From positions 1 through 62,897 of the forward strand of contig JAFYJV010000015.1 of assembly GCA_017537965.1 (NCBI GenBank): DNA of 62,897 nt, given 5' to 3'. A model generated the notes under the pieces. The model was not told the origin of the DNA. It did no database searches and saw only the letters and a program-made list of their open reading frames with translations. This document shows, in pieces, positions 9,302 through 52,996 of this stretch (the stretch's first letter is position 1; every line of letters begins with the position of its first letter). The DNA comes from Bacteroidales bacterium (GTDB taxonomy: Bacteria; Bacteroidota; Bacteroidia; Bacteroidales; F082). Position numbers and translations under genes: made by a program.

Positions 9302-9303
9302 CT

Positions 9304-9338
9304 CTTCTATCTTCTGACTTCTCACTCCTTACTTCTTT
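9304..9338. repeat. Heptanucleotide repeat array (CTTCTAT/CTTCTGA type), five units
   Basis: Units CTTCTAT, CTTCTGA, CTTCTCA, CTCCTTA, CTTCTTT span the gap between two minus-strand genes and include the stop codon of the DUF2027-Smr gene. Confidence 0.75.
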
Positions 9339-10411
9339 TCATTAATCACCACATCTATCGCTCCCACACCGAACTTGGCGATGGAAGCCATCTTGTTTTC
9401 CGTGTTCTTGTAATTCTTGAGCTCCTCTATGATGGCGTTCTTCAGCACACCGTTGCCCACCCCATGGATGAAAGTCACCTTGGTATATTCGGCAGCAATG
9501 GCACTGTCGAGCATCTTCTTGAAATAGTCCATCTGGATCTTGAACATGTCGTGGCTCGACAGGCCCATGATATTGTCAACCAACTCTCCGATATGCAAAT
9601 CCACAGTTGCCTCGCCCTGTCCTGTCCTGTGTCTGTCGATCGGTGCCTCTTTCTTGATCAGATCCTTCTTGGGAGCCTGCGAGCCGATTCCCTCTTTCAT
9701 GATCTTGTTGAAATCATCGTCACCATGTTTCAAGGCAACCAGTTCAGAGAGGCATACCGTCACAGCCTTCTCGCCCAGCACACCTGACATCAGATAGCTG
9801 CCTTCCTTGAAGAAACGGTTGGATCGCAACGCAAACGGGGCATTCAGCGGCAACAGCACCACGTCGGAAGTCTCAGCAGTGAAAACGGCCTGCACAATGC
9901 CATTGCACCAATACTCCAGATCATCGCGCGAGATAGTCTCCACGGTCACTTTTTCATACTTCTCGATCTGTCCATAGTCCACATTGGCAAATCGGTCTTC
10001 TTCCTTGATAGTGAAGGTATAAAGCATCTCGTATGGCGTATGATTGACCAGCACTACGTCCATGGCACCTGTCAGCAACCATTGTTGTTCGTGTGGCACA
10101 AAGGCAAGATACACACCCTCTTTCTCGGCTTCCTTGGCAAAACGGCGCAATCCACCATGACGTGCATCCTCCGCCTGTTGCTGTTGCACCAATTCCTTTT
10201 CTTTGATCTCCTTCTGAACCGTATCTACGATCTGTTGTTGCCGAGAGGGCTGCAAACGGTAATCCAACACCAAGTCGGAAATCAGGCACGGCACCTCAAA
10301 GCCGTCCTCAATCTCCACCATCACCATCCTCGAATCGATGATCTTCGTCACCTTCCCGCCTCCCACGGAACTAAGGAAATTCACTTTGTCTCCAATACTA
10401 ACGTTGGTCAT
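9329..10411 (-). CDS. DUF2027 protein with C-terminal Smr domain
   Basis: 360 residues from ATG at 10411 (MTNVSIGDKVNFLSSVGGG). An upstream in-frame start at 10477 lies beyond the promoter and adds unrelated residues. The N-terminal ~70 residues match the DUF2027 beta-domain (SVGGGKVTKI, EDGFEVPCLISDLV). The C-terminal ~85 residues are an Smr domain (VDLHIGEL near 285; FIHGVGNGVLKNAI near 325), the DNA/RNA-handling domain of MutS2 and its relatives. No MutS ATPase part is present. The Smr HGxGxGxLK motif is intact, so nuclease activity is possible; the biological role is unknown. It is transcribed divergently from the cytochrome peroxidase gene. Confidence 0.85.
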   Translation of the reverse strand: MTNVSIGDKVNFLSSVGGGKVTKIIDSRMVMVEIEDGFEVPCLISDLVLDYRLQPSRQQQIVDTVQKEIKEKELVQQQQAEDARHGGLRRFAKEAEKEGVYLAFVPHEQQWLLTGAMDVVLVNHTPYEMLYTFTIKEEDRFANVDYGQIEKYEKVTVETISRDDLEYWCNGIVQAVFTAETSDVVLLPLNAPFALRSNRFFKEGSYLMSGVLGEKAVTVCLSELVALKHGDDDFNKIMKEGIGSQAPKKDLIKKEAPIDRHRTGQGEATVDLHIGELVDNIMGLSSHDMFKIQMDYFKKMLDSAIAAEYTKVTFIHGVGNGVLKNAIIEELKNYKNTENKMASIAKFGVGAIDVVINEKK

Positions 10412-10430
10412 AGCACTGCGATTTTTTCGG

Positions 10431-10438
10431 CAAAGATA
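10431..10438 (-). promoter_or_regulatory. Promoter -7 box of the DUF2027-Smr gene
   Basis: TATCTTTG on the minus strand, 20 nt before the ATG at 10411. It faces the plus-strand box at 10451 with only 12 nt between them. Confidence 0.6.
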
Positions 10439-10450
10439 ACAAAAAACACG

Positions 10451-10458
10451 TACCTTTG
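10451..10458 (+). promoter_or_regulatory. Promoter -7 box of the cytochrome c peroxidase operon
   Basis: TACCTTTG lies 18 nt before ATG 10477, which argues that 10477 rather than 10456 can be a start. Confidence 0.55.
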
Positions 10459-10476
10459 CGTACCAATTCAACAACA

Positions 10477-11610
10477 ATGCATCCTCAACGGACGATACTC
10501 CTCCTCACATGCCTCGCCCTCTTCAGCGCCTGTCGGCAAAAGAACGACACCGGCGCCATCATGCAAAACCAAACGGCGCAACAGACACTCAAGAAAAACG
10601 GACATGACGTCTTCAGTCTTTCGCTGATGAGATTTCCCGCACTCCTCCTCCTTTTGTCCATGCTCTTTTCATCTTGTCATCCCTCTCAAGAGGAAACACA
10701 CAAACCCACTCCATACAACCTTCCACAGCCCGTCTTCTTCCCAACTGCCAACAACATACCCGCCGACAACCCCATGACCGAGGAAGGTGTCGCCTTGGGA
10801 GAAAAGCTGTTCTTTAACGGGGTTACACCCAACCGGCATGGCATCCCAACGGGATGTGCATCCTGTCATCATCCCGAATACAGCTTCGAGGGCGGTCCCG
10901 AAGCCACACTGGAGCATCTCGGCACCGAACACACCATGCTCCCACTCATCAACTTGGTTTGGAACACTTCCGGATTAGGCTGGAAAGGAGAGGTCGAAAC
11001 CCTGGAGGACATGGTCTATGCCGCTGTCACCAGCCCCGTGGAGATCAACACCGACACTTCAGAGGTGGTACGCTACCTGCAACAGGACGAAGCCTATCCC
11101 GAGTTGTTCCTTAAAGCCTTTGGCTCCTCGGAGATCACCTTTGTCGGAGTAGAAAAAGCCATTGCGCAATATGTAAGAAGTCTGGTCTTCGCCAACAGCA
11201 AATTCGACCGTTATCTACGAGGCGAAGAGCAACTCAGTCAGGACGAGCTGAACGGCTACATGCTCTTCATCACCGAGGAGGGAGCCGACTGCTTCCATTG
11301 CCACGGCGGAGGTTCCAACGCCTTGTTCACCACCAATCTGCTTTACAACAACGGCTTGGATGCTGAATACCATGGCGACTTCAAGGCTCCTACGCTGCGC
11401 AACGTCGCCCTCACCGCACCCTACATGCATGACGGACGATTCCATAGCCTTGACGAGGTCATCGACTTCTACTCCGACAGCGTGCAGTATTCCGAATTCA
11501 TCAGTCCCTTGATGCATCATGTGATGCAAGGCGGCATCCGTCTTACCCCGCAAGAGAAACAACAGCTCAAAGCCTTTCTTAACACATTAACGGAGAATGA
11601 GTTACCTTAA
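10477..11610 (+). CDS. Di-haem cytochrome c peroxidase (MauG/CcpA family) lipoprotein
   Basis: Two haem c motifs, CASCHH and CFHCHG, lie about 170 residues apart. Conserved peroxidase-family stretches (NLVWNTSGLGWKG, FKAPTLRNVALTAPYMHDG) identify a periplasmic di-haem peroxidase that reduces hydrogen peroxide with electrons from the respiratory chain. The N-terminus is odd: from ATG 10477 there is one lipoprotein signal (ILLLTCLALFSAC), about 30 polar residues, then a second one (MRFPALLLLLSMLFSSC) from ATG 10627. A 327-residue product from 10627 has normal family length; the 377-residue form from 10477 is what the promoter position favours. The gene ends 14 nt inside the SpoU methyltransferase gene, so the two are translationally coupled. 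Confidence 0.85.
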   Translation: MHPQRTILLLTCLALFSACRQKNDTGAIMQNQTAQQTLKKNGHDVFSLSLMRFPALLLLLSMLFSSCHPSQEETHKPTPYNLPQPVFFPTANNIPADNPMTEEGVALGEKLFFNGVTPNRHGIPTGCASCHHPEYSFEGGPEATLEHLGTEHTMLPLINLVWNTSGLGWKGEVETLEDMVYAAVTSPVEINTDTSEVVRYLQQDEAYPELFLKAFGSSEITFVGVEKAIAQYVRSLVFANSKFDRYLRGEEQLSQDELNGYMLFITEEGADCFHCHGGGSNALFTTNLLYNNGLDAEYHGDFKAPTLRNVALTAPYMHDGRFHSLDEVIDFYSDSVQYSEFISPLMHHVMQGGIRLTPQEKQQLKAFLNTLTENELP

Positions 11611-12148
11611 ATCAAACGACCTTTTCAAGCACATTCCCACAGAGGAGATCTTCCAACGCATCCCCCGTCCCATCGTCATCGCCGACCACCTCATGACGCC
11701 TGACAACATGGGATCCATGATACGCATCGCCGACAACATCGGGGCTACGGAGATGGTGTTTCTAGGGGACGAGAGCCGTCATAGTCTTGGCAAGATACGT
11801 CGTGCCGCCGCCTCCAGTCGTGGAAACATCCAATGGTATTTCACCGAGGAGACTGACTTGCGCAAGATCGTCCCCGAAGGCAAATCCATCGTCGCCATTG
11901 AGACCGCCGACAACGCTACCTGCATCTACGACACCGAACTTCCCGAGGACGCTGCTTTCGTCGTAGGCAATGAAAGCCAAGGGCTCAGCGAAGAACTGCT
12001 TCAGCAATGCGACATGGTGGTTTTCATCCCGGTCCCAGGTCCCACCCGCTCGCTCAACGTCAGCCATGCTGCCGCAGTGGCCCTCTTCGAGTGGCAAAGG
12101 CAGATGATTGTTAAGAATTCAGAAGACAGAAGACAAAATGAAGTATAG
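11597..12148 (+). CDS. SpoU/TrmH-family RNA 2'-O-methyltransferase
   Basis: 183 residues with the three SPOUT family motifs in order: NMGSMIRIADNIGA near residue 36, VVGNESQGLSEE near 122, and the knot-forming PVPGPTRSLNVSHAAAVAL near 146. These enzymes methylate ribose 2'-OH groups in tRNA or rRNA using S-adenosylmethionine; which RNA is modified cannot be told here. It lacks the N-terminal substrate-binding domain of the longer rRNA methylases, so it resembles the short tRNA (TrmL/TrmH-like) forms. The last ten codons (NSEDRRQNEV) are encoded by a degenerate heptamer repeat and overlap the next gene. Confidence 0.85.
   Translation: MSYLKSNDLFKHIPTEEIFQRIPRPIVIADHLMTPDNMGSMIRIADNIGATEMVFLGDESRHSLGKIRRAAASSRGNIQWYFTEETDLRKIVPEGKSIVAIETADNATCIYDTELPEDAAFVVGNESQGLSEELLQQCDMVVFIPVPGPTRSLNVSHAAAVALFEWQRQMIVKNSEDRRQNEV
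12121..12134 (+). repeat. Two heptamer units (AGAAGAC) inside the gene overlap
   Basis: AGAAGACAGAAGAC encodes part of the methyltransferase C-terminus and lies directly before the next ATG at 12138. It is the same repeat family as the larger arrays. Confidence 0.55.
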
Positions 12149-12830
12149 TCACATTTTCTTTGATTTGGATCGGACCCTATGGGACTTCGATGCAGCCGCT
12201 GAAGTTGCCTTCGAACGCATCTACGAGCAATACCGTCTCAAGGATCTGGGCATCCCCAGCGCCCATGAGTTTCACGAGGTGTATCATCCGCTGAACGAGC
12301 ATCTTTGGGAACTGTATCGCGGCAACCAGATCACCAAGGACGAACTCAACCGGACCCGATTCATGAAGCCCTTGGAACACTATGGCATCCACGACGTTGA
12401 GTTGGCCGATCATCTTAGCGAGGACTATGTGTATTGGTCGCCCCGCATCGTAAGGCTCATCCCAGGCACCATGGAACTGTTGGATTATCTAAAGCCCAAA
12501 TACCATCTCCACCTCATCACCAACGGATTTCAGGAAGTGCAACATACCAAGTTGAGCGGCTCGGGACTGGAACCCTATTTCGAGACCCTTACCGTTTCCG
12601 AGGAAGTCGGAGTGAAGAAACCCGACCCTGAGATTTTCCGATATGCCTTAAGGAAAGCCGGTGCCACCCCCGAGGTGAGCCTCATGATCGGCGACGAGAT
12701 GGAAGTGGATATCGACGGTGCCCGCGCCGCCGGCATGGATCAACTCCTCTTCAACCCAAACGGAAAAGAGCCTCTGGGAGATCGGACTTTTGAGGTTCAC
12801 AATTTACTGGAAATCAAATCGATTATTTAG
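12138..12830 (+). CDS. YjjG-family HAD hydrolase (noncanonical pyrimidine nucleotidase type)
   Basis: 230 residues from ATG 12138 (MKYSHIFFDLDRTLWDF). HAD motif I is FFDLDRTLW, motif II is HLITNGFQEVQ, motif III the Lys in GVKKPDPEIF, and motif IV IGDEMEVDIDGA. The alpha-helical cap after motif I and the closing GARAAGMDQLLFNP give the closest match to YjjG-type 5'-nucleotidases, which dephosphorylate pyrimidine and damaged nucleotides. The start at 12108 was rejected because its extra ten residues are repeat-derived. The gene overlaps the methyltransferase by 11 nt. Confidence 0.85.
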   Translation: MKYSHIFFDLDRTLWDFDAAAEVAFERIYEQYRLKDLGIPSAHEFHEVYHPLNEHLWELYRGNQITKDELNRTRFMKPLEHYGIHDVELADHLSEDYVYWSPRIVRLIPGTMELLDYLKPKYHLHLITNGFQEVQHTKLSGSGLEPYFETLTVSEEVGVKKPDPEIFRYALRKAGATPEVSLMIGDEMEVDIDGARAAGMDQLLFNPNGKEPLGDRTFEVHNLLEIKSII

Positions 12831-12836
12831 GTCTTC

Positions 12837-13514
12837 CTACTTCATCAACGCCAACACCGAGGCTTTGCCACGTACCTTTTGCCCGATGTGGACTTCCACT
12901 TCGGCGTCCAATGGAAGGAAGACATCCACTCGGGAGCCAAAACGGATCATTCCCAATTCCTCGCCAGCAATGGAAGCGTCGCCAGGTTCCGTATCACAAA
13001 CGATACGGCGTGCCACAAAGCCGGCTATCTGCCGCAACATCACCTCACGGCCTTGAACATCTTTGATGACGATGGTATTATGTTCGTTTTCGGTAGATGA
13101 CTTGGGATTGAAAGCCACGAGGTATTTCCCAGGGTGGTATCTGTAATAGGTCACCACCCCATCGAACGGGAAAAAGTTGATATGAACGTTATAGATCGAC
13201 ATGAAGATGGAGAGCTGCCTCCTTTGCTCATGGAAATACTCGTCTTCCATCACTATTTCATTAGCCGCCACTACTCCATCGGCAGGTGACAGCACTGCGT
13301 GCTGCAGGTGAGTGGTATGACGGGAAATGGGAACACGAAAGAAACGGACAATCAAGGCAAGGAAAGCCGCAGACAACACATAAACCACGATATGCCACCA
13401 GTCTTGCCGAGGCCAAAAAACGTTAATGCCAACGATGATGGCAGCCACCACCAGCAAGTTGATCACTATCGCCTTATTGCCTTCCTCGTGAATCCGTTTA
13501 TGTATCCGTTTCAT
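12837..13514 (-). CDS. psd: Phosphatidylserine decarboxylase proenzyme, short type
   Basis: 225 residues. An N-terminal hydrophobic hairpin (about 17-65) anchors it in the inner membrane. LSPADGVV, HINFFPFDGVVTYYRYHPG and the C-terminal RFGSRVDVFLP identify the short PSD family. The Gly-Ser in FGSR is the self-cleavage site that produces the pyruvoyl cofactor. It converts phosphatidylserine to phosphatidylethanolamine. Its start overlaps the stop of cdsA by 4 nt, so the two phospholipid genes are translationally coupled. Confidence 0.92.
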   Translation of the reverse strand: MKRIHKRIHEEGNKAIVINLLVVAAIIVGINVFWPRQDWWHIVVYVLSAAFLALIVRFFRVPISRHTTHLQHAVLSPADGVVAANEIVMEDEYFHEQRRQLSIFMSIYNVHINFFPFDGVVTYYRYHPGKYLVAFNPKSSTENEHNTIVIKDVQGREVMLRQIAGFVARRIVCDTEPGDASIAGEELGMIRFGSRVDVFLPLDAEVEVHIGQKVRGKASVLALMK

Positions 13515-14281
13515 AGCAACAGCAAAAATACGAAAACAAAAGGCATGGCAAACAGCACCGAGTCAAATCTGTCCAGCACACCACCATGACCCGGGATGAG
13601 CTTCCCAGAGTCCTTCACCCCAGCCTGCCGTTTCAGCATCGACTCGCACAAGTCGCCCAGCGTGCCAAACACCACCGCGATCAAGCCCATGCCCACCGCC
13701 TCTGTCAAAGAAAGCCAACTGGCATAATGGCTGAACACGATGACGCCTGCCATGGTAAACAACAAACCGCCGATGCTGCCTTCGATGGTTTTCCCCGGGG
13801 AGATCCGCTCGATGAGCTTGTGTTTGCCTAACAGTTTGCCTATAAGGTAAGCAAAGGTATCGTTTGTCCATAAAAGAACAAAAACAAGCAACACCTTCTC
13901 TGGACCAAAAGCAGTCTGATGCATCTGTGCCATCATGATACAGGGAAGACACAAAAACACAATGGAACCAAAAGCGAATGCCGCTATCGTCTTGAAATCG
14001 TAAGTCTTGGAAAACAACGCCAAAACAAAGGGAGCCATGACGAAAAACCAATGAACTCCAGGTAAAAACAACTTGGCCAAGAAATACCCCAATACGATTA
14101 TCTCTACCAATACCAGATGCCACTTGTCGTCAACATGTTGCAGCCGTCCCATTTCGTATGTGCCTACTGCAACGATGAAAAGCGCCAGGGCAGTCAAGCT
14201 CCAAAACGAAAACAACACGCACACAATGATGACGGCCACCAACACCGCACCCGACAAAGTTCGTGTCAACAATTCTTTCAT
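13511..14281 (-). CDS. cdsA: Phosphatidate cytidylyltransferase
   Basis: 256 residues from ATG 14281 (MKELLTRTLSGAVLVAVIIV). It has several membrane segments and the C-terminal CDP-diacylglycerol synthase signature: SMLKRQAGVKDSGKLIPGHG followed by GVLDRFDS. It makes CDP-diacylglycerol from phosphatidic acid and CTP, the precursor for the phospholipids completed by psd. An upstream in-frame ATG (14329) would start inside the hairpin terminator and encode MKKAAQLGGFFYL; it is rejected because the promoter box at 14289-14296 lies downstream of it. With the -7 box ending 8 nt from the ATG, the transcript is probably leaderless or nearly so. Confidence 0.92.
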   Translation of the reverse strand: MKELLTRTLSGAVLVAVIIVCVLFSFWSLTALALFIVAVGTYEMGRLQHVDDKWHLVLVEIIVLGYFLAKLFLPGVHWFFVMAPFVLALFSKTYDFKTIAAFAFGSIVFLCLPCIMMAQMHQTAFGPEKVLLVFVLLWTNDTFAYLIGKLLGKHKLIERISPGKTIEGSIGGLLFTMAGVIVFSHYASWLSLTEAVGMGLIAVVFGTLGDLCESMLKRQAGVKDSGKLIPGHGGVLDRFDSVLFAMPFVFVFLLLL

Positions 14282-43688: not shown

Positions 43689-43728
43689 TAAAAAAAACGC
43701 CTCGAAGATTTCGAGGCGTTTTTTTTAT
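43689..43728 (+). terminator. Bidirectional terminator
   Basis: AACGCCTCGAA (43696-43706) and TTCGAGGCGTT (43710-43720) pair perfectly over a 3-nt loop, with A and T runs on either side, between convergent genes. Confidence 0.95.
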
Positions 43729-45533
43729 TCTGCAAATGCGTGACTGATCTTCCTGTTGATCTCCAACAGGCGACGTTCATTCATCTTGACGACCGCCCGA
43801 TCGTACGTCATCAAGCCGTTCAACTCAGTCTCACAGTCGGTGGTCTGGGTATATACCGCAGCCGAGAATCCTTGAAACGCCATCTGAAAGAGCTTGTTGG
43901 CGTATTCCACATAAGTATCCGTCACCTGTTCCTCGCTGTCAAACTCCACATAGCCCCAGCCTTGGTCCTTCACCCAAGTGTGGCCTTCCACCTTTCTTCC
44001 GATGCCGCCATACTCTCCCAGCACAGTAGCCCTTGTGGGATCATACAGCACCATCTTGGGCTCCGGATAATGATGCAGGTCGAGGATGTCGCCACAAGCA
44101 TAGAAGTTGCCTCCGGAAGCGGGATTCACCAGACGGGTGGGGTCCAGTTTCTTGGTCATCTCCACGATCTCAGGGGTTTTGAACTGTCCCCACGACTCGT
44201 TGAAAGGCACCCACACGCCGATGCAAGGCTGTGAGGCCAGGCTCTCGATGATCTCCTTCCACTCCTTCTTGTAACACTCCTCCGATTCCATGGAGCGAAG
44301 ACTCTCCGGCCCGTCAAAGTATTGTGTGGTCTGCCACCCTGGGCCTCGCCCGCCACTAGGCATGTCCTGCCACACAATCATCCCAAGGCGATCGCAATGG
44401 TAGTACCAGCGGGCAGGTTCCACCTTCACATGTTTGCGTATCATATTGAATCCCAGCTCCTTGGTCTTCTCCACGTCAAATGCCAGCGCTGCATCCGTCG
44501 GGGCGGTATAAAGCCCATCAGGCCACCAGCCTTGGTCAAGGGGACCGAACTGGAAGACGGGTCTCCCGTTGAGGGTAAGGCGGACGATGCCGCTATCATC
44601 TCTTTTCGTCCCGAAGCAGCGCATGGCGAAGTAACTCTCCACGGCATCGACGGTCTTGCCCTTGCTCGTGACGGTCACCTTCATGTCATAGAGGAACGGA
44701 TGGTCGGGCGTCCAGCAGAGGAAGCCTTCGGGCATGTCGATCTCCACGTCACCTCCGCCGAGGGCTTTGCCCGAGGCGACCTGGGCGCCCTCACGCGTCA
44801 CGACGACCTCTACGAGGTCGTCGTGACGGGGATCCGAAAACTTCGGAGTCACCCGCACCGTGCCACGCTCCAAGTCAGGTACGGTGACCAACGATTGGAT
44901 ATAGCGTTCCGGCACCGGCTCCAACCACACCGTCTGCCAGATCCCCGTCACGGAAGTGTAGAAGATGCCTCCCGGCTTCCTCACCTGCTTCCCGTGCGGG
45001 ATATACGAGCCGTCGGTGGGATCCCAGACACGGACCACCAACGAGTTGGTCTTGCCACTCAAAGCCGGGGTGATGTCAAACGAGAACGGCACGTAACCTC
45101 CCGTGTGACTGCCCACCTTGACGCCGTTGACCCATACATCGGCCATCCAATCGACGGCACCGAAGTGGAGCAACACCCTCTTGTCTTTCCATGACTTGGG
45201 CACCGTGAAATCCTCCTGATACCACAAAGCATGGTCCTCACCCACCTCCTTCTGCACTCCCGAAAGAGACGACTCAATACAGAAAGGCACCAAGATGCGG
45301 CCATCGTATGCCGTCGGCATCTTCGCCTCTTTGGAGGTGATGGCATAGTTCCACCATCCATTCAGGTTTTTCCATTCAGGACGGGTCATCAGCGGACGGG
45401 GATACTCCGGGAGCACGTTCTCAGGATTCACCTCCTGCGCCCAACGGGTCTTGATCCTGTCACCCGCAGGCTGATATTGCGCAATCGCCGAATAGCCGGC
45501 CATCAGCAAAGCAATCATAAACAGTCTTTTCAT
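43725..45533 (-). CDS. Glycoside hydrolase family 2 protein, exported
   Basis: 602 residues with a signal peptide (LFMIALLMAGYSAIAQ). The order is the GH2 one: jelly-roll sugar-binding domain (RPEWKNLNGWWNYAI, VDWMADVWVNG), Ig-like domain, then TIM barrel (NMIRKHVKVEPARWYYHCD, IVWQDMPSGG). The acid/base Glu is in VWVPFNESWGQF; a candidate nucleophile Glu lies in VLGEYGGIG. It is likely a periplasmic beta-glycosidase; the sugar is not predictable. It follows the kinase/VTC operon by 31 nt on the same strand, so it may be co-transcribed, but its role there is unclear. Confidence 0.88.
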   Translation of the reverse strand: MKRLFMIALLMAGYSAIAQYQPAGDRIKTRWAQEVNPENVLPEYPRPLMTRPEWKNLNGWWNYAITSKEAKMPTAYDGRILVPFCIESSLSGVQKEVGEDHALWYQEDFTVPKSWKDKRVLLHFGAVDWMADVWVNGVKVGSHTGGYVPFSFDITPALSGKTNSLVVRVWDPTDGSYIPHGKQVRKPGGIFYTSVTGIWQTVWLEPVPERYIQSLVTVPDLERGTVRVTPKFSDPRHDDLVEVVVTREGAQVASGKALGGGDVEIDMPEGFLCWTPDHPFLYDMKVTVTSKGKTVDAVESYFAMRCFGTKRDDSGIVRLTLNGRPVFQFGPLDQGWWPDGLYTAPTDAALAFDVEKTKELGFNMIRKHVKVEPARWYYHCDRLGMIVWQDMPSGGRGPGWQTTQYFDGPESLRSMESEECYKKEWKEIIESLASQPCIGVWVPFNESWGQFKTPEIVEMTKKLDPTRLVNPASGGNFYACGDILDLHHYPEPKMVLYDPTRATVLGEYGGIGRKVEGHTWVKDQGWGYVEFDSEEQVTDTYVEYANKLFQMAFQGFSAAVYTQTTDCETELNGLMTYDRAVVKMNERRLLEINRKISHAFAE

Positions 45534-45564
45534 ATTTCATCTATTAATTCAATTCTCAACGTCC

Positions 45565-45978
45565 TCATTCCACCAAAGTCTGAAAACGCTCGGCGGCCTC
45601 TACCAAAGCTGCTATCGCCCGCGCCACGACCTTGTCGGACGCCTCCGCCCCTTCATCCAGCATCTGCTCGAAACACACCCAAACAGATGCCCCTCGCCGA
45701 CCCTTGTCCTCAAACTCATACAACGAGGCCTTCACCACCTTGTAGTTCCAGTTAAGCAGGTTGCACGCCATCAAAGCCTGAGCGTAGTTCTCTTCGGTGA
45801 CGTCGAAGATTCCTGGCAAGGTGAGACGAAAGAACAAAGGATCCTCCGCGTCATGCCAAAGCAGGAAGTTCCATCCTTCCCATAGGAAGTTGATCCCCAC
45901 CTTGGATCTCGATGCGTCGATGCCCTGCCCTTTCAGATAGGCGAGCACCATCTCTTTCGCGGTATTCTTCTGTCTCAT
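45565..45978 (-). CDS. YbjN-like small cytoplasmic protein
   Basis: 137 residues, no signal peptide. The pattern of a short helix, a beta-meander (KVGINFLWEGWNFLLWHD, LFFRLTLPGIFDV) and helices (NYAQALMACNLLNWNYKVVKA) resembles the YbjN/type III chaperone-like fold. It is 3 nt downstream of the kinase-AAA gene and so is tightly coupled with it; it could be a chaperone or adaptor for that protein (inference). Fold assignment is by eye. Confidence 0.6.
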   Translation of the reverse strand: MRQKNTAKEMVLAYLKGQGIDASRSKVGINFLWEGWNFLLWHDAEDPLFFRLTLPGIFDVTEENYAQALMACNLLNWNYKVVKASLYEFEDKGRRGASVWVCFEQMLDEGAEASDKVVARAIAALVEAAERFQTLVE

Positions 45979-45981
45979 GGC

Positions 45982-47727
45982 TTATTTGAATCCTATCTTC
46001 GTCTTGGTAGCGTATGTCGGGTTCTTGTAACGCAGCACATCCACAAGGATGTTCTGGCTTATCGGGACGTCCATGTAGGCAGCGGTCATGGCGGCTTCGT
46101 TGACCGCCTCGGTGATGTCGCCAGCCACAAAATCCTCCGACAGACGCGCCAACTCTTCGTAGTCGATCTCCTCGGTCGGACGTTCGCTCAGGTGTTTCTT
46201 GAAAATATCCTTCCTGGCTTCCATGTCAGGCTGCGAGACAAAGAACACGCGGTCGATGCAGCCGGGACGCAACAGGAAAGGATCGACCTGCTCGGGCTGG
46301 TTGGAGGTCACCACAAGCAAGATGCCGCGCTTGGCACAGCCGTTCATCAATGCCAACATGGCCACGCTTTCCTTGGTGACGTTCTCCGGTCCCGGGTTGG
46401 GGATCAGGTACTCCAACTCCTCCAAGCAGATGACGAAAGGTGCCATGAGTGAGGCGGCGTCGAAGATACGCTGCAGGCTGTCAATCACGCCAGGCTGATA
46501 GATGTTGCCGAACTCCGATGCCTTGAGGACAGTGTAGTTGAATCCCAACTCCTCGGCGAAGCACTCCATCACGAGGCTCTTGCCGCATCCGGGAGGACCG
46601 TACAGCAAGATGCCATTGACAGGAAGCAACTTGTATTTTTTGGCTTTCTCGGGGTTCTGCAACGCGAAGATCACCTCCTTGCGCAACTGTTCCTTGAGCT
46701 CGTCACGTCCAGCCACTTGGTCGAAGCCGTTGCCCGATCCTTTCTTGAACTTGATGCGTGCCGCTTCTTCGGGTAGCTGACCTTCGCCAGCCTTGGCATC
46801 GCCAGACTCGTTCAGAGCCTCTTCGTCAGCCACGTCCGTGCCTTCGGGCACCAGCCGTTCCACCAGGACGTTGAAGAACTCCTCCGCCGAGGTGAAACGG
46901 GAGTTCACCCTGAGCGACAAGGCCTTCTTCAAGATCTCCTTCAGGAAATCGGGAACATGGATCTCCTCGGTATCCAACACCAGTTCTTCTTTCCGTGCCT
47001 CCTTAACCTTCGCCTTCACCAGGTTCTTGTCGCCATAGCAGTCAGCAAGATCCACCTCCCACGGCGCTTTTCCAAAGATGAGATAGTAGAGCAACGCACC
47101 TACCGAGAACACATCCGACTTAGGGGTATAGATGCCCCGATAGGTCTCCGGCGCGCGGAAAAACGGTGCCAGGTCGCCCACAAAGAAGTTCGGCCTCCCC
47201 ATCACCATGGACGACACGTGACCAAGGTCGATGATGGTGGGCAGCAGCATCCCGTCTTCCGTCTCCTTCAACATGATGTTCGAAGGGGTGATGTCGTTGT
47301 GCAGCAGCGCCTTGGAATGCATGAAGATCAAGCCGTTCAATACACAGAGCGTGATCTGCATGGCGTCCTCCACATCGAAAACACCGTCTTTCTCAAGCGA
47401 TTCGTTCAGCAGCTGGCCTTGGTAAAACTCCGTCACGAGGTAGTGGTATTCCTTGTCGCCCTTTCTGAAACCGCCGTTGTCAACATAGCGTATGATGTTG
47501 TCGTTTTTCTCTTCGTTAAGTTCCCTGCAAAAGACGATCTCGAACACTTCCTTCCCTTCAAACAGTTGTGAGGATGCCATGCCCGTAATCTCGAACACCT
47601 TACAGAAATAGAGCATGTCGTCACTGCCGTACACCGTGTACGACTCCGCAGACGCACCTTTCTTGATGAATTCATTGACGGTGTATTTGCCAATTTTATC
47701 CCCTTTTTTGAACAATCTCTTATCCAT
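45982..47727 (-). CDS. Ser/Thr protein kinase fused to a Cdc48/FtsH-type AAA+ ATPase
   Basis: 581 residues, cytoplasmic. Residues ~13-290 are a Hanks-type kinase: glycine-poor loop FIKKGASAESY, Lys43 in FCKVFE, catalytic HNDITPSN (Asp145, Asn150), DLG (Asp167) and APE (193-195 region, RAPETYRG). A charged linker (295-330) leads to an AAA+ domain. This has Walker A GPPGCGKS (377-384), a variant Walker B ICLEELE (Glu436 replacing the usual Asp, Glu437 as catalytic Glu), sensor 1 TSNQ (Asn476) and Arg residues in LLRPGCIDR. HRD is replaced by HND. It is embedded in the VTC/DUF4956/DUF2490 operon. Suggested job: sense a signal by phosphorylation and remodel a partner by ATP hydrolysis; partner unknown. 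Confidence 0.88.
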   Translation of the reverse strand: MDKRLFKKGDKIGKYTVNEFIKKGASAESYTVYGSDDMLYFCKVFEITGMASSQLFEGKEVFEIVFCRELNEEKNDNIIRYVDNGGFRKGDKEYHYLVTEFYQGQLLNESLEKDGVFDVEDAMQITLCVLNGLIFMHSKALLHNDITPSNIMLKETEDGMLLPTIIDLGHVSSMVMGRPNFFVGDLAPFFRAPETYRGIYTPKSDVFSVGALLYYLIFGKAPWEVDLADCYGDKNLVKAKVKEARKEELVLDTEEIHVPDFLKEILKKALSLRVNSRFTSAEEFFNVLVERLVPEGTDVADEEALNESGDAKAGEGQLPEEAARIKFKKGSGNGFDQVAGRDELKEQLRKEVIFALQNPEKAKKYKLLPVNGILLYGPPGCGKSLVMECFAEELGFNYTVLKASEFGNIYQPGVIDSLQRIFDAASLMAPFVICLEELEYLIPNPGPENVTKESVAMLALMNGCAKRGILLVVTSNQPEQVDPFLLRPGCIDRVFFVSQPDMEARKDIFKKHLSERPTEEIDYEELARLSEDFVAGDITEAVNEAAMTAAYMDVPISQNILVDVLRYKNPTYATKTKIGFK

Positions 47728-47744
47728 GATATATTATTTTGATT

Positions 47745-48452
47745 TCAATATTTCAGATGGTATGACAATCCAAGATAAAAACGATCGAAAGGCTCCTTCA
47801 CCTGCAATTCATTGTCCATGCGCACGAATCCGCTGATGGATTGTCGTCGGGTGAGGCGGTAACTCACCGAGAAAGTCGTGCGCAAATGGTCGATGAAGGT
47901 CTCCGATGAATCCTCGCGCAATCTCAAGAAAAACTCCGATGAAAGCGTGTATTTGTACCGACTGCCTGGCATCTGGTAAACGGCTTGGAACTTATGTCGC
48001 CAATACCATTTGGGGTTGACCCGATAATCGCCGGTCCGCTCATCGCGATACGTAAACATCATACGGGTACGATAGCTGAGCTTGAGTCGCCTTACCGTCT
48101 CGGAATAGGAAAAATTTACCCCGAAACGGAGTCGGTTGTCGAAATAGCCTTTGTCGTCGTGATGCCTGACATAACCCAAATTGGCACCCATACGCAACCT
48201 GTTCCCCATGTATGGAAGTTGCACGGGAGTCTCAACCGACACCTCACTGAGCCATCGTTCCAAATGGAAACCTCCATAGTTCTCGAAGCGCAACTCCTCT
48301 TCCAGCTCAAGCTCGACATCATCCCACGGCTCCACAGTGTAATCCATCCCCGCAATGGCACCAAAATCCTTGTTCCGTCCACTTTGGGCGAACGAAGTCA
48401 TGGTCATCGCCAACAGCAGGAAACTGAATACTATGTGGATCTTACAGCGCAT
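47745..48452 (-). CDS. DUF2490 outer-membrane beta-barrel protein
   Basis: 235 residues. Signal peptide (IHIVFSFLLLAMTMTSFAQ) then alternating amphipathic strands: VELELEEELRFENYGGF, LRMGANLGYVRHH, NRLRFGVNFSYSE, RRLKLSYRTRMMFTYRD, ending SGFVRMDNELQ and FYLGLSYHLKY with a C-terminal aromatic/Tyr. This matches the DUF2490 family of probable outer-membrane barrels. The start overlaps the DUF4956 stop by 1 nt. Its place in this operon suggests it forms the outer-membrane element of the system (inference). Confidence 0.8.
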   Translation of the reverse strand: MRCKIHIVFSFLLLAMTMTSFAQSGRNKDFGAIAGMDYTVEPWDDVELELEEELRFENYGGFHLERWLSEVSVETPVQLPYMGNRLRMGANLGYVRHHDDKGYFDNRLRFGVNFSYSETVRRLKLSYRTRMMFTYRDERTGDYRVNPKWYWRHKFQAVYQMPGSRYKYTLSSEFFLRLREDSSETFIDHLRTTFSVSYRLTRRQSISGFVRMDNELQVKEPFDRFYLGLSYHLKY

Positions 48453-49183
48453 CAGTAGTTGAATTCCTTTAGCTTGGTAAATGTCCCTATGGTGCTGGCT
48501 TCTCCAGGAAGCGGCTTATACCAGATCTTAATGTATGCGGCGTCGCGCAGGTAGTCGATATGCCCCACCTCCATCTTCTCGATCTTGATGCCCGTACGTT
48601 CCTCCAGGTCGGCTTTCAGCTCGGCTTCTTTGCCCATCTTCACCAAGTCGATCTTGTCATAGAGGATCACCTTTTCGGCCATACGCTTCGCGTGTTTGTT
48701 GCCCTCGAAGGCCCAAATGGCAAGGATCACCAGGAAATTGGTGACCAGCAGCTCAATATAGCTCGTTGTCAACGCCTGACCGTTGATGATGGAAACACCC
48801 ATGACAACGAAGAGGTAGGTCATCTCTCGGATACGCAGTGTCTCCGTCCGGTATCGTATCATGCCAAAGATGGCAAAGAGTCCAAGGGCGTAGGCCACGT
48901 TCATCTTCATGTTATCCATCAAGGTGATGATGAGGAAGATGACGACGGCAAACATCATGAAGGTGAAGTAATAGTCACGACGTTGCGACTTCTTGTAGTA
49001 AAAAAGACGGATGATGATCCAGCAAACCAGGAAGTTGAGCAGGAATCGGAACAAGAGGGTCCAGAGGCTTGTGGCGTCGAACAGCGGCACGCCTAAGAAA
49101 TTGATGTCGGAAACGCCACCGCCATTGCCAAACTCGCGGGCAATATCCGGATCGAAACTTTGTGGAGCTTGTAAAAATACCAT
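48452..49183 (-). CDS. DUF4956 inner-membrane protein
   Basis: 243 residues. About four membrane segments between residues 40 and 160 (LLFRFLLNFLVCWIIIRLF, FTFMMFAVVIFLIITL, VAYALGLFAIFGMIRYRTE, LVTNFLVILAIWAF) precede a cytoplasmic C-terminal domain (VILYDKIDLVKMGKEAELK, KIEKMEVGHIDYLRDAAYI). FAIFGMIRYRTE is a hallmark stretch of DUF4956. The family commonly sits beside VTC-domain genes, as here (2-nt gap). It may anchor or translocate the polymer made by the VTC protein; this is not experimentally settled as far as I know. Confidence 0.85.
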   Translation of the reverse strand: MVFLQAPQSFDPDIAREFGNGGGVSDINFLGVPLFDATSLWTLLFRFLLNFLVCWIIIRLFYYKKSQRRDYYFTFMMFAVVIFLIITLMDNMKMNVAYALGLFAIFGMIRYRTETLRIREMTYLFVVMGVSIINGQALTTSYIELLVTNFLVILAIWAFEGNKHAKRMAEKVILYDKIDLVKMGKEAELKADLEERTGIKIEKMEVGHIDYLRDAAYIKIWYKPLPGEASTIGTFTKLKEFNY

Positions 49184-49185
49184 GT

Positions 49186-49959
49186 TTATGCTATATTACT
49201 GATTGATTTCAATTTGTTGATTCTTCTGATTTTTTTCTTGAAACGGTTCTGCTTGACTTCGGGACGTGTCATAGCGGTTCCAATGCAATACTTGCTTATT
49301 TTGTATGGCTTGATGCGAAGGTCGAAAAGCACTTCCTTCAACAAGGATCGGGCGCGCCCATCCTGCTTGAGTTCCATGATCACCAGATCGTCCATGGAGG
49401 CCGTGGTGCCCGAAACGAAGTTGTTGAAAACCAGGTTACAGTCGATGGTTAGCCTTTCCGTCTTCTCGTAGTTGACCAATGTGAAACGGTCGAAAGCCGT
49501 CTCCAGATTAGGGCTGAGGCTCTCCACGGGATAAGGCTGTTTCTCGGCTAGGAATGCCGCCGTGTCAGGATCCTTTGTGATGTCGATGCCCGGTTGCACC
49601 TCAATGCGTTTCTTCTTGGTCCTGCCTTTGTTGGTCTTGTGTTTCACCTCGCAGAAGGTCAGGTGCGAATCCACGTAGGTGCGCACCCTCACTTTGTCGC
49701 GAACCAGGTGACGGTCGTGATGGATGGTGTACATGGTGAGCTCCGGCGTGTCGTAATAGACAGTGCTGTATGGCGAAAGCCGGTTCCCTTCCACTTCCTG
49801 GGCATAGTAATGCTCATGAATACCCTTGAGGATGGCCAGAAGCTCATTGGAGGTCACCAGGTACTTGGTATCGACCCTGTTCATGAGTTTCACGTCTTTC
49901 ATCTCCCCAAGGGTGATTGGCTTCATGGAGTTCACTATGTCGAGGATCTCAGGTCTCAC
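49186..49959 (-). CDS. VTC-domain (polyphosphate polymerase-like) protein
   Basis: 257 residues, cytoplasmic, starting at a GTG that overlaps the previous stop (GTGA). The tunnel-fold basic residues of VTC domains are visible: NRVDTKYLV (Arg28, Lys32), YDTPELTMY, KVRVRTYVD, FCEVKHKTNKGRTKKKR and a late acidic/basic pair VIMELKQDG. In yeast Vtc4 this domain makes polyphosphate from ATP. Bacterial members are called polyphosphate polymerase domain proteins but few have been tested. The C-terminal tail is strongly basic (RFKKKIRRINKLK). An internal ATG (residue 12) is the only good alternative start. Confidence 0.88.
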   Translation of the reverse strand: MRPEILDIVNSMKPITLGEMKDVKLMNRVDTKYLVTSNELLAILKGIHEHYYAQEVEGNRLSPYSTVYYDTPELTMYTIHHDRHLVRDKVRVRTYVDSHLTFCEVKHKTNKGRTKKKRIEVQPGIDITKDPDTAAFLAEKQPYPVESLSPNLETAFDRFTLVNYEKTERLTIDCNLVFNNFVSGTTASMDDLVIMELKQDGRARSLLKEVLFDLRIKPYKISKYCIGTAMTRPEVKQNRFKKKIRRINKLKSISNIA

Positions 49960-50381
49960 CTTGCCACATATTCGTAAACCTTGACCGATTCCAGTTTGCC
50001 GTTGGGATAGTAGTTCAATTGCCGCTTCTTGGAGCCGTCGTCGTTGTATTCGAACTTTCGGATGCGCACCACCTTGTCACGGTCGTTGTACTCAATCTCC
50101 CGGGTCACCTTGGCAGTGACGTCGCTGTCGGGCGGGTATTCGCTCACCACGCGTGTCTTCTGACCATAGCTGGCATATTCAATCTCCTCAATCTTACGGC
50201 CGAGCGAGTCGTAGGTGGTCACATGGTCGAGGAACGGCATCTTTGCCCCCACGGCGGTGTTCCACTCTTTCAGGACCATTCCCTTGCGGTTCTCACGCTT
50301 CTGGATGGTAGCGTCGGAAACCGACTGCGCAAACGCCGGGACGGTCATCGTCATCAATACAAAAAACAAGATTCGTTTCAT
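49956..50381 (-). CDS. Small secreted protein with YD-like antitoxin/MORN-type repeats, function unknown
   Basis: 141 residues from ATG 50381, with signal peptide (MKRILFFVLMTMTVPAFAQ). The body has short repeating beta units (TTYDSLGRKIEEIEYA, REIEYNDRDKVVRIRKFEYN, RQLNYYPNGKLESVKVYEY) similar to toxin-repeat/MORN-like hairpins. No catalytic residues are evident. Its stop overlaps the VTC start, so translation is coupled. Periplasmic location is predicted; partner unknown. Confidence 0.7.
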   Translation of the reverse strand: MKRILFFVLMTMTVPAFAQSVSDATIQKRENRKGMVLKEWNTAVGAKMPFLDHVTTYDSLGRKIEEIEYASYGQKTRVVSEYPPDSDVTAKVTREIEYNDRDKVVRIRKFEYNDDGSKKRQLNYYPNGKLESVKVYEYVAR

Positions 50382-50426
50382 TTTTCCAAACATTAACCCT
50401 TGACAGGATCTCTAATTCTATTTCTG

Positions 50427-51143
50427 TTAAACTTGTATTCTCACTACAAACGTCGTATCGGGCGTCATCTCATAGATCTCGTCCGCGCCAACCGTAACGG
50501 TATCGATCATCGGCGAAGGCACCTCCAAGGCGTCTTGGGTATAGGTGATGACCTCGTAGGTTCCCGGCTGCACCTTTTGGAAGGCGAAGATGCCGTCGAT
50601 TCCCACACGGACGTCATCCTGATGATAGGTATCGCCAAGCTTGCGGAGGTAAACCCTATGCTCGTATGCCCAACCTTCTCCGCGGTAACTCTCGTTATGG
50701 AAATACACCCCCCACACCTTGCCTTTGATGATGGAAGTGCCGTACGCCTTGCCATCGTGGATGTAGAGGATAGGCACTTGCGCCACGCTTCCCCGTTCAA
50801 GTGACACTGTCTCCGAAACGGGGATCCGCTCACCCGAAGGCAGGGTGGAATAGGCAAACACCGTATATTGGCCTGGGGTGAGATACTCGAACTGGTACAG
50901 ACCATCGGGATTCGTCTCGGCGTCATCCCCATAGAAGTCGTCATTTCCATAGACGATAAACACATCCGTCTTGGCTGCATTGACGGTATCGACATTCAAT
51001 TGGTAGTCGTCATCGGGATGATGAACCAGTTTGACATAGCCTCGCACAGTACCAGTGCCCCCTTCTCCCTCATGGGTGTTGCAAGAAGCAAGCAACACAC
51101 ACAAAAGCGCGATCACAAAAAACAATCTTTTGGAATTATTCAT
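50427..51143 (-). CDS. Lipoprotein with carboxypeptidase-regulatory-like (CNA-B) domains
   Basis: 238 residues from ATG 51143, or one codon earlier. Lipobox LLASC (signal LFFVIALLCVLLASC). Two beta-sandwich modules follow: GTVRGYVKLVHH to GLYQFEYLTPGQYTVFAYS, and SIIKGKVWGVYFHN to IFAFQKVQPGTYEVITY. Both carry the G-x-Y/F-x-F-x-x-L-x-P-G-x-Y pattern of SdrD/CNA-B-type folds. It probably lies in the periplasm or on the cell surface as the first gene of the operon; the next gene is 45 nt downstream. Function unknown. Confidence 0.75.
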   Translation of the reverse strand: MNNSKRLFFVIALLCVLLASCNTHEGEGGTGTVRGYVKLVHHPDDDYQLNVDTVNAAKTDVFIVYGNDDFYGDDAETNPDGLYQFEYLTPGQYTVFAYSTLPSGERIPVSETVSLERGSVAQVPILYIHDGKAYGTSIIKGKVWGVYFHNESYRGEGWAYEHRVYLRKLGDTYHQDDVRVGIDGIFAFQKVQPGTYEVITYTQDALEVPSPMIDTVTVGADEIYEMTPDTTFVVRIQV

Positions 51144-51200
51144 CATTATAATTATGCTATAAATGTGTAAAAGTACATAATTTTCCATAACCAGAATCCA

Positions 51201-51231
51201 TCTCCTAGACAAAAATCAGTCCAAAAGGAGA
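51201..51231. promoter_or_regulatory. Possible operator between marR and the lipoprotein gene
   Basis: TCTCCT (51201-51206) and AGGAGA (51226-51231) form a spaced inverted repeat with CCA/TGG extensions. It could be a MarR site or a weak terminator. Confidence 0.3.
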
Positions 51232-51246
51232 AAATGGGCTCTGTCT

Positions 51247-51684
51247 TTACAAATTCAACCGCTCAATGTTGTCGCAAGCGTGGTTCAGCACTTTAACAAA
51301 AGTGGTGAGATCCTTCTCGGAGATGCCGTCAAGGATATCGTTGATGGCTGCAATCGCAACCCGTTTGGTATTGTCTTTCATCTCCATGCCCGTCTTGGAG
51401 AGTTTGATGTTGTTCACGCGACGGTCCGACTTATCTACCGAACGCAGCACCAAGCCCTTCTTCTCCAGGTTGTCGATGAATTGGGTCACCGAGTTCTTGT
51501 CTTTTTGGATGATGTAAGCGATATTCTGCTGGGTCATCTCCCCTTGGTTCCAAAGGGTGTCCATCACCAGGAACTGTTCCGCGGTGAGATTGATTCCATT
51601 GGCTTTGAAGACGGAGGCAATATGTTTCTTCAACTTGCAGTTGAGGATGTTGACCCATACGCCGGCTTGTTTTACGAGTAGCAT
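51247..51684 (-). CDS. MarR-family transcriptional regulator
   Basis: 145 residues. The winged helix is clear: LTAEQFLVMDTLW, GEMTQQNIAYIIQKDKNSVT (recognition helix) and the wing LEKKGLVLRSVDKSDRRVNN. MarR proteins bind palindromes as dimers and respond to small ligands. It lies 52 nt downstream of the oxoamine synthase gene and 103 nt upstream of the VTC operon, so it may control either. Confidence 0.92.
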   Translation of the reverse strand: MLLVKQAGVWVNILNCKLKKHIASVFKANGINLTAEQFLVMDTLWNQGEMTQQNIAYIIQKDKNSVTQFIDNLEKKGLVLRSVDKSDRRVNNIKLSKTGMEMKDNTKRVAIAAINDILDGISEKDLTTFVKVLNHACDNIERLNL

Positions 51685-51736
51685 GATATCCTATTTAGGG
51701 TTTGATAGTCGCTTGATCCGGAAAGCCGGACAGGTC

Positions 51737-52996
51737 TTAGTCGATTCTCATGTTCGGCACTTCGGTACCGTCGTAGAAGCCCTGGTCGAGTTTCTCCTTG
51801 ACTTCCTTGAAGGCGTTGAGCGTGTATTCCACGTCCTCCATGCTGTGGGCGGCAGTAGGGATGATGCGGAAGATGATCATGCCCTTGGGAATGACAGGAT
51901 ACGTCACAATCGAGCAGAAAATTCGATAATTCTCACGCAAATCGATGGCAATGTTGGTAGCTTGCACCACGTCGCCTTTCACATGCACCGGGGTGACGCA
52001 GGCTTCTGCGGGACCGATGTCGAAGCCTAGGTTGCGGAAGCCGTTTTGAAGCGCACGGGTCACCTTCCATAGCTGGGCACGCAGGCGGTCGCCTTCCTCG
52101 CCACGGATGATTTCCAGACGTTTCTCGCAGCCTTCCACGATGGCCAGCGGCAAGCTCTTGGCGTACATCTGCGAACGCATGTTGTAACGCAGGTATTCGA
52201 TCACGTGTTTCGGACCAGCCACAAAGCCGCCAATGATGGCCATTGCCTTGGCGTAGGCGCCGATATAGATATCCACTTCGTCCATCACGCCGAAATGCTC
52301 GGAGGTGCCGCGCCCCGTAGGTCCCATTACGCCGAAGCCATGGGCGTCGTCGATGAGGATGCGGAAACTGTATTTCTTCTTCAAGGCCACGATGCCGGCC
52401 AGGTCACCCAAAGCGCCCGTCATGCCATACACACCTTCGGTGATGACAAGGATGCCACCACCCGTCTTCTCCACCACTTCGGTGGCCACCTGAAGCTTCT
52501 TTTCCAAGTCGGCCATGTCGTTGTGACGATACTTGTATTTGTTGCCAAGATGCAGACGGATGCCGTCGAGCAGGCAGGCGTGTGCCTCGTTGTCATGGAC
52601 GATGACATCGTGGGGACTGGTAAGGGTGTCAATGGTGGACACGATGCCCTGGTAGCCAAAGTTGAAGAGATAGGCAGCCTCCTTCTTCTCGAAGTCGGCC
52701 AACTCTTTCTCGAAATGTTCGTGCATACGGGTCTGGCCCGACATCATACGGGCGCCCATGGGAGCGGCAAGGCCCCAGCGGGCTGCCCCTTCGGCATCGA
52801 CCTTGCGGATGGCCGGATGGTTAGCCAAACCAAGATAGTTGTTCAAACTCCAGCAAAGCACCTCTTTGCCGTTAAAAACCATTCGGGGACCGAGTTCGCC
52901 TTCCAGACGCGGAAATGCAAAATAACCGTCAGCACGCTCACGGTACTGCCCAATCGGGCCACCCGAATCCTTAGCTATTCTTTCAAAAATATCCAT
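51737..52996 (-). CDS. Alpha-oxoamine synthase (serine palmitoyltransferase / cysteate acyltransferase type)
   Basis: 419 residues of the PLP-dependent oxoamine synthase fold: LNNYLGLANHP, MGARMMSGQTRMHEHFEKEL, LFNFGYQGIVSTID, VHDNEAHACLLDG (His stacking on PLP), LIDDAHGFGVMG (Asp and His) and GAYAKAMAIIGGF (PLP Lys). The family includes SPT, glycine C-acetyltransferase, BioF and the cysteate C-acyltransferase that starts sulfonolipids. The RSQMYAKSLP variant and the divergent SDR partner favour a long-chain-base role over BioF. SPT versus cysteate enzyme cannot be decided by eye. The 5' leader contains a heptamer array. Confidence 0.85.
   Translation of the reverse strand: MDIFERIAKDSGGPIGQYRERADGYFAFPRLEGELGPRMVFNGKEVLCWSLNNYLGLANHPAIRKVDAEGAARWGLAAPMGARMMSGQTRMHEHFEKELADFEKKEAAYLFNFGYQGIVSTIDTLTSPHDVIVHDNEAHACLLDGIRLHLGNKYKYRHNDMADLEKKLQVATEVVEKTGGGILVITEGVYGMTGALGDLAGIVALKKKYSFRILIDDAHGFGVMGPTGRGTSEHFGVMDEVDIYIGAYAKAMAIIGGFVAGPKHVIEYLRYNMRSQMYAKSLPLAIVEGCEKRLEIIRGEEGDRLRAQLWKVTRALQNGFRNLGFDIGPAEACVTPVHVKGDVVQATNIAIDLRENYRIFCSIVTYPVIPKGMIIFRIIPTAAHSMEDVEYTLNAFKEVKEKLDQGFYDGTEVPNMRID

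Follow-up and report, generated by a model that had tools for sequence, protein, structure and literature searches.

A VTC/DUF4956/DUF2490 envelope operon of Bacteroidales with a probable inserted kinase-AAA/YbjN cassette

The window considered here is the whole contig JAFYJV010000015.1, 62,897 nucleotides (nt), of a Bacteroidales genome assembly (GCA_017537965.1; 2.32 Mb, 94% complete). Its minus strand carries seven open reading frames, from position 51143 down to 45565, for a lipoprotein, a small secreted protein, a VTC-domain protein, a DUF4956 membrane protein, a DUF2490 barrel, a protein kinase fused to an AAA ATPase (kinase-AAA), and a YbjN-family protein. An earlier note on this DNA had proposed that they could be one system in which kinase-AAA controls an envelope module; the open reading frame listing and Pfam matches confirm the seven genes, their places and their families, and comparison with related genomes makes it highly probable that the architecture is composite: a conserved envelope operon with an inserted two-gene cassette, kinase-AAA and YbjN. 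Gene orders in the relatives fall into three groups; kinase-AAA and YbjN lie within the operon in group A, to which the window belongs, are located away from it in group B, and are missing from it in group C. The genes of the locus are as follows.

50427 to 51143, minus strand: lipoprotein with beta-sandwich (SdrD_B/carboxypeptidase-regulatory-like) domains (Pfam; lipobox LASC by eye), present in groups A, B, and C
49956 to 50393, minus strand: small secreted protein with DUF2963/MORN-like repeats (Pfam DUF2963-like, 3.1e-5; signal peptide by eye), present in groups A, B, and C
49186 to 49959, minus strand: VTC-domain protein with a Vtc4-like polyphosphate polymerase fold and intact active-site residues (PF09359, E 1.2e-30)
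48452 to 49183, minus strand: DUF4956 inner-membrane protein (PF16316, 4.1e-53)
47745 to 48452, minus strand: DUF2490 outer-membrane barrel of putative porin family TC 1.B.81 (PF10677, 2.3e-8)
45982 to 47727, minus strand: kinase-AAA fusion, first gene of the probable inserted cassette (Pkinase 4.7e-29 and AAA 6.5e-19)
45565 to 45978, minus strand: YbjN-family protein, second gene of the probable inserted cassette (PF10722, 5.4e-7)
43725 to 45533, minus strand: secreted GH2-family glycoside hydrolase, last operon gene in groups A and C (Pfam; signal peptide by eye)
51247 to 51684, minus strand: MarR-family regulator, conserved upstream neighbour of the operon (Pfam; synteny)
51737 to 52996, minus strand: cysteate-C-fatty-acyltransferase-like enzyme (sulfonolipid synthesis), conserved upstream neighbour (structure-database match; synteny)

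Consecutive genes from the lipoprotein to YbjN are separated by 33, -4, 2, -1, 17, and 3 nt; the last five agree with the earlier note, and the 45 nt that it gave for the first applies when translation starts at the second ATG (50381). From this spacing we infer that the seven genes are expressed as a unit. The unit had been drawn to end at YbjN, but the tightly spaced run continues on that strand into the GH2 gene, which starts 31 nt further downstream. MarR lies 103 nt upstream of the lipoprotein gene and the acyltransferase 52 nt upstream of MarR, both on the same strand. A Pfam scan of the ten genes at this locus (43725-52996) found no CotH, as the note had said. Pfam matches of the lipoprotein are weak, SdrD_B (5.8e-6) and CarboxypepD_reg (7.7e-6) falling below the cut-off and fn3_3 (1.2e-5) barely above it. 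The G+C content (0.54-0.55 for the kinase-AAA/YbjN cassette, 0.50 from VTC to DUF2490, and 0.57 for GH2) is uninformative on the origin of the cassette.

The order lipoprotein-secreted protein-VTC-DUF4956-DUF2490 is repeated across related genomes, and this recurrence puts the arrangement beyond chance. In group A (the window, L012-L018, L044-L046, L116, L119, and L120, where L013/L044 and L016/L120 are the same contigs) the full order is acyltransferase-MarR-lipoprotein-secreted protein-VTC-DUF4956-DUF2490-kinase-AAA-YbjN-GH2; BLAST did not find the acyltransferase and MarR in L018. Group C (19 loci: L067-L073 and L121-L132) has the same operon without kinase-AAA and YbjN, GH2 beginning 2-4 nt after DUF2490 in 18 of the 19 loci and at -86 nt (a mechanically assigned start) in L123. 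In group B, for which all 39 non-adjacent genomes with both genes were read (kinase-AAA context loci L047-L052 and L081-L113), kinase-AAA-YbjN is followed by GH2 in 38 of the 39 (three at 36-41% identity only; none in L092) and preceded by gyrB in 32 (Pfam check on L048); the remaining seven show no marker gene in the fetched flank, some starting at or near a contig end. VTC-module genes occur in none of these 39 fetched flanks, and in the eight group B loci read around the VTC module itself (L061-L066, L117, and L118) the flank fetched beyond DUF2490 contains no match to kinase-AAA or GH2. One of them, L061, has an alpha-2-macroglobulin-family gene (9218-13714) after DUF2490 on the same strand.

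Among 99 genomes of the same genus, a kinase-AAA orthologue (61% identity or more) is found in 58 and VTC in 78; the 58 do not include distant paralogues of kinase-AAA (32-40% identity) or a partial additional match in G258. The closest named relatives (kinase-AAA 76-84% identical) are Bacteroidales or Bacteroidia assemblies, several of them with ruminant gut samples in their titles. Both genes are present in 56 genomes, at a distance of 1.5-1.9 kb in 17, at 40 and 131 kb on one contig in two, and on different contigs in 37. The 17 linked genomes comprise every kinase-AAA orthologue of at least 76% identity plus G308 and G238; ten of the 58 carriers, all linked and in group A, were assigned by distance only. 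The 22 VTC genomes without a kinase-AAA orthologue match include 19 that form a clade and whose operon, on reading, is without kinase-AAA; the other three are G314 and G318 (group-B-like VTC; assemblies 58% and 80% complete) and G274 (VTC at a contig edge, left unread).

A tree of VTC plus DUF4956 (44 rows; a quick search with SH-aLRT support only, in which the program warned of long outgroup branches) recovers group C as one clade (support 98). Group A is paraphyletic: two genomes of linked order, G238 and G308, are placed with group B (support 88). From this paraphyly, linkage is probably ancestral to the kinase-AAA clade. Synteny and tree together are best accounted for by insertion of the cassette between DUF2490 and GH2; the simplest history would be a single such insertion in the ancestor of groups A and B, followed by unlinking in B, while loss of the cassette in group C may be the alternative. 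L066 (G237) has gene order B, yet stands beside group A in the tree (support 96) on a long end branch, which may reflect repeated loss of linkage or a misplacement of this row. A recent chance juxtaposition in one strain was rejected, the arrangement being common to 17 genomes and paraphyletic.

These distributions bear on whether the seven genes form one system, in which kinase-AAA and YbjN would regulate VTC/DUF4956/DUF2490 by phosphorylating or remodelling the polymerase. Such a system would fit the short spacings in the window, a linkage that is probably ancestral to the kinase-AAA clade and kept in 17 of the 56 genomes with both genes, and the presence of VTC in 56 of the 58 kinase-AAA carriers (compared with 22 of the 41 genomes without kinase-AAA). 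However, the groups are clades, so shared ancestry confounds this co-occurrence, which is not independent evidence; the two genes are apart in 39 of the 56 genomes (17 have them within 2 kb); 22 of the 78 VTC genomes, 19 of these one clade, have no kinase-AAA orthologue match; and among 15 loci of distant kinase-AAA homologues (26-39% identity, in some cases confined to the AAA domain) the neighbours are Hsp70/TerB in five and YbjN in four, and the VTC, DUF4956, and DUF2490 profiles match in none. A single seven-gene system is accordingly improbable, and the idea that the VTC machine requires kinase-AAA was rejected on three of these grounds: separation in 39 of 56, the operon without it in group C, and 0 of 15 distant loci. 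By genome count, kinase-AAA thus lies mostly away from VTC/DUF4956, an outcome that the note had named as speaking against the functional link. Of the reading proposed in the note, the VTC/DUF4956/DUF2490 envelope module is well supported, an active polymerase is plausible, and control by kinase-AAA is weakly supported.

In the composite locus, kinase-AAA would instead be a protein-quality or signalling module of its own, unneeded by the VTC operon, which combines a Ser/Thr kinase and a Cdc48-like unfoldase in one protein and has YbjN as a putative adaptor or chaperone. The protein has a PknB-like kinase domain (residues 5-295) with the motifs of an active Ser/Thr protein kinase (VAIK Lys, HxD Asp, Asn, and DxG Asp) and a Cdc48-like AAA domain (residues 334-570). 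K383 (Walker A), E437 (Walker B), and Y410 (aromatic pore loop) are kept in all 53 rows (52 loci, as the one contig of L016/L120 is counted twice); the Walker B Asp is replaced by Glu in the window copy alone and is Asp in 53/53 relatives. At what we take to be the position of the first arginine finger in the second region of homology, Cys490 is found in 53/53 orthologue rows, compared with Arg in 13/13 distant rows, which departs from a classical AAA unfoldase; the second Arg of this region is kept in 52/53 rows. Several kinases in the wider kinase-AAA family have lost catalytic residues. The YbjN protein scores 30.3 bits against a Pfam YbjN cut-off of 22 and directly adjoins kinase-AAA in 48/48 genomes read; its profile gave a single weak, unrelated match in PDB (E 0.32), by sequence only.

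Other candidates for kinase-AAA and its surroundings were set aside. L002/L026, considered as an own-genome kinase-AAA orthologue, is FtsH (Peptidase_M41 1.5e-63), and L003 is a separate kinase match. A mobile or phage-borne cassette is unsupported, a plasmid search (E limit 1e-40) giving one distant match (32%), and a phage search (E limit 1e-20) gave 10 matches, all to the AAA domain only. Separately, L053 and L054 carry a second kinase-AAA/YbjN pair (36% paralogues), whose neighbours, identified by Pfam on L053, are a C25 peptidase and two Na/H-exchanger genes. A recurring Bacteroidota cassette (L019, L021, L022, L024, L055, and L133) consists of Hsp70, a kinase-AAA fusion, and a TerB-like protein, preceded by two more conserved genes, one of which looks J-protein-like by eye only; in L133 (Haliscomenobacter plasmid pHALHY02) it adjoins BREX genes. 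A literature search found no description of this Hsp70/TerB kinase-AAA system, and the part of PMC7159879 consulted covers other systems.

The envelope operon itself would have as its core MarR, the lipoprotein, the small secreted protein, VTC, DUF4956, DUF2490, and GH2, and would be a conserved operon of one Bacteroidales genus without PPK1. The composite-locus explanation as a whole, including the roles proposed for this core, is the best available and is held with moderate confidence. Its central enzyme scores 107 bits against a PF09359 gathering cut-off of 23 and has the TTM tunnel fold, closest to Vtc4; phmmer of the single VTC sequence against PDB returned nothing useful. The protein is 257 residues long, VTC is its sole Pfam match above cut-off, and it is without the SPX domain of yeast VTC, which places it in the VTC-domain family and not in the yeast complex. 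Its catalytic basic residues K32, R91, R93, R158, and R169 align with Vtc4 K200, R264, R266, R361, and R373, of which K200, R361, and R373 are presumably catalytic basic residues in Vtc4. All 18 active-site residues checked are conserved in 43/43 rows, representing 42 distinct loci (L013 was skipped as a duplicate of L044, and L016/L120, one contig, were both counted); the loss of active-site residues that the note had named as a refuting outcome is not seen. R264 and R266 are essential in Vtc4, according to a section of PMC8749416.

An active polymerase is plausible from these residues, and the complete Vtc4-type catalytic tunnel suggests that VTC most likely polymerises the gamma-phosphate of nucleoside triphosphates into polyphosphate, which would take place at the inner face of the inner membrane; polyphosphate as the product is judged somewhat probable. 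The competing proposal that the protein is a tripolyphosphatase or other TTM hydrolase, not a polymerase, is given little credence. PPK1 (PF02503) was found in 0/99 same-genus genomes, including 0/46 near-complete ones, and PPK2 (PF03976) in one of the 99 (G245). In a sample of the family, PPK1 occurs in 71 of the 74 genomes from other genera and in none of the 26 from this genus, so its lack marks the genus, although VTC extends beyond it (46 of the 74 and 19 of the 26; 65/100 in all).

The neighbours of VTC suggest where such a polymer might go. DUF4956 adjoins VTC at every VTC locus read and is 2 nt from it in the window; DUF2490 adjoins DUF4956 throughout the genus and in 4/4 loci from other genera that share this VTC type (L074, L075, and L077 by BLAST; L076 by Pfam, 2.8e-13). 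DUF4956 would anchor the enzyme in the membrane and conduct the chain outward, the part that the Vtc membrane domains play in yeast, and DUF2490 would be an outer-membrane barrel through which the chain exits, with the lipoprotein, secreted protein, and GH2 acting in the periplasm or at the surface, as their sequences predict. A kinship of DUF4956 with MgtC, suspected from motifs, was too weak to keep (matched by 2/14 DUF4956 members, best E 0.0046). DUF2490 is a putative porin family, TC 1.B.81, whose functions are not established, according to an extract of PMC4827864. Export of polyphosphate to the envelope is thus a tentative possibility. The fullest version, in which a genus lacking PPK1 (and nearly throughout PPK2) makes polyphosphate by a split bacterial VTC machine, with a VTC tunnel, a DUF4956 inner-membrane conduit, and a DUF2490 outer-membrane pore that thread the polymer to the periplasm or surface during synthesis, is rather unlikely.

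The same neighbours allow another reading, in which VTC/DUF4956 would phosphorylate or regulate an envelope glycan or lipid rather than make free polyphosphate, as part of an envelope-polymer module with GH2 and the sulfonolipid-type acyltransferase. GH2 orthologues (E 1e-150 or better) are present in 72 of the 78 VTC genomes and in 4 of the 21 without VTC, and the acyltransferase lies upstream in 13/14 group A, 5/8 group B, and 18/19 group C loci, some of which end at contig edges. Genes for CotH, poly-phosphate polymerase, DUF4956, and DUF4832 also lie beside Gram-positive pel clusters, as part of PMC7112168 reports. On this analysis the proposal is a minority possibility. As to the acyltransferase gene itself, the pyridoxal phosphate enzyme at 51737-52996 (minus strand) scores 542 bits with cysteate-C-fatty acyltransferase (28eh_A) and 579 bits with 7u7h_A, matches that point to sulfonolipid (capnine) synthesis; in 18 group C loci an SDR gene stands between it and MarR, separated from the acyltransferase gene by -53 to 8 nt.

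Several points weigh against the composite locus with a polyphosphate-making VTC. A literature search found no biochemical proof of polyphosphate synthesis by any bacterial VTC protein, and the searches for PPK1 and PPK2 used a single Pfam domain for each. In other genera VTC occurs alongside PPK1, so it is not simply a replacement; and 21 of the 99 same-genus genomes are without both VTC and PPK1, so polyphosphate may be dispensable in the genus. Profiles of DUF4956 and DUF2490 gave no PDB matches, which makes the export route a guess from location. In group B, GH2 stays with kinase-AAA/YbjN rather than with VTC, which weakens GH2 as a VTC partner. The probably ancestral kinase-AAA/VTC linkage and the presence of VTC in 56 of 58 carriers also keep a functional link between the two conceivable.

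VTC-domain genes of bacteria are widespread in the family (65/100 genomes), and the literature search found none with a shown product. A genus with PPK1 in 0/99 genomes and a mostly intact VTC operon offers a clean natural background: polyphosphate in it would point to VTC, and its absence would mean that bacterial VTC does something else. Synteny shows which genes of the module travel together and that kinase-AAA is an optional member, which allows properly targeted knock-outs. If the split VTC machine is real, it would be a polyphosphate export pathway, and the surface lipoprotein and GH2 would work on that envelope layer too. The kinase-AAA/YbjN pair raises a second question, about the fusion of a kinase to a Cdc48-like unfoldase, a protein that has homologues in Bacteroidota Hsp70/TerB cassettes.

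The literature search found no paper with this gene set, and comparison is with systems that share parts of it. The Bacteroidota Hsp70-kinase-AAA-TerB cassettes have a homologous kinase-AAA fusion (32-35% identity), but its partners there are Hsp70 and a TerB-like protein (Pfam above cut-off in L024 only; annotated in L133), with no YbjN and no VTC in the five loci tested. With the YbjN/AmyR/DR1245 family the YbjN protein here shares a Pfam YbjN match above cut-off; it differs in being the direct neighbour of kinase-AAA. The yeast VTC complex (Vtc4/Vtc3/Vtc1) has the same TTM catalytic tunnel, and the aligned Vtc4 basic residues are kept here; the yeast machine includes a membrane part, the Vtc membrane domains holding the enzyme and passing the chain onward. 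In contrast, the protein in the window is without SPX, its membrane part would be a separate protein of another family (DUF4956), and the host has two membranes and an outer-membrane barrel. In Bacteroides thetaiotaomicron, DUF4956 and DUF2490 occur together as BT3498-BT3499 in one row of an iron-starvation table, the second value of which (0.175) is read as no significant response (PMC10434189, in the table portion consulted). Bacterial CotH-VTC-DUF4956 loci likewise join a polymerase gene to DUF4956: genes for CotH, poly-phosphate polymerase, DUF4956, and DUF4832 are contiguous with pel operons of streptococci and clostridia (PMC7112168, in part), and Clostridium perfringens NELoc-2 has VTC genes near a CotH gene (PMC2879425, in part). 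The window locus differs from these in being without CotH, pel, and DUF4832, and in having DUF2490, the lipoprotein, the secreted protein, and GH2; a locus of the same family, L074, with the order CotH-VTC-DUF4956-DUF2490 (CotH Pfam 2e-44), bridges the CotH-type loci and the window-type operon.

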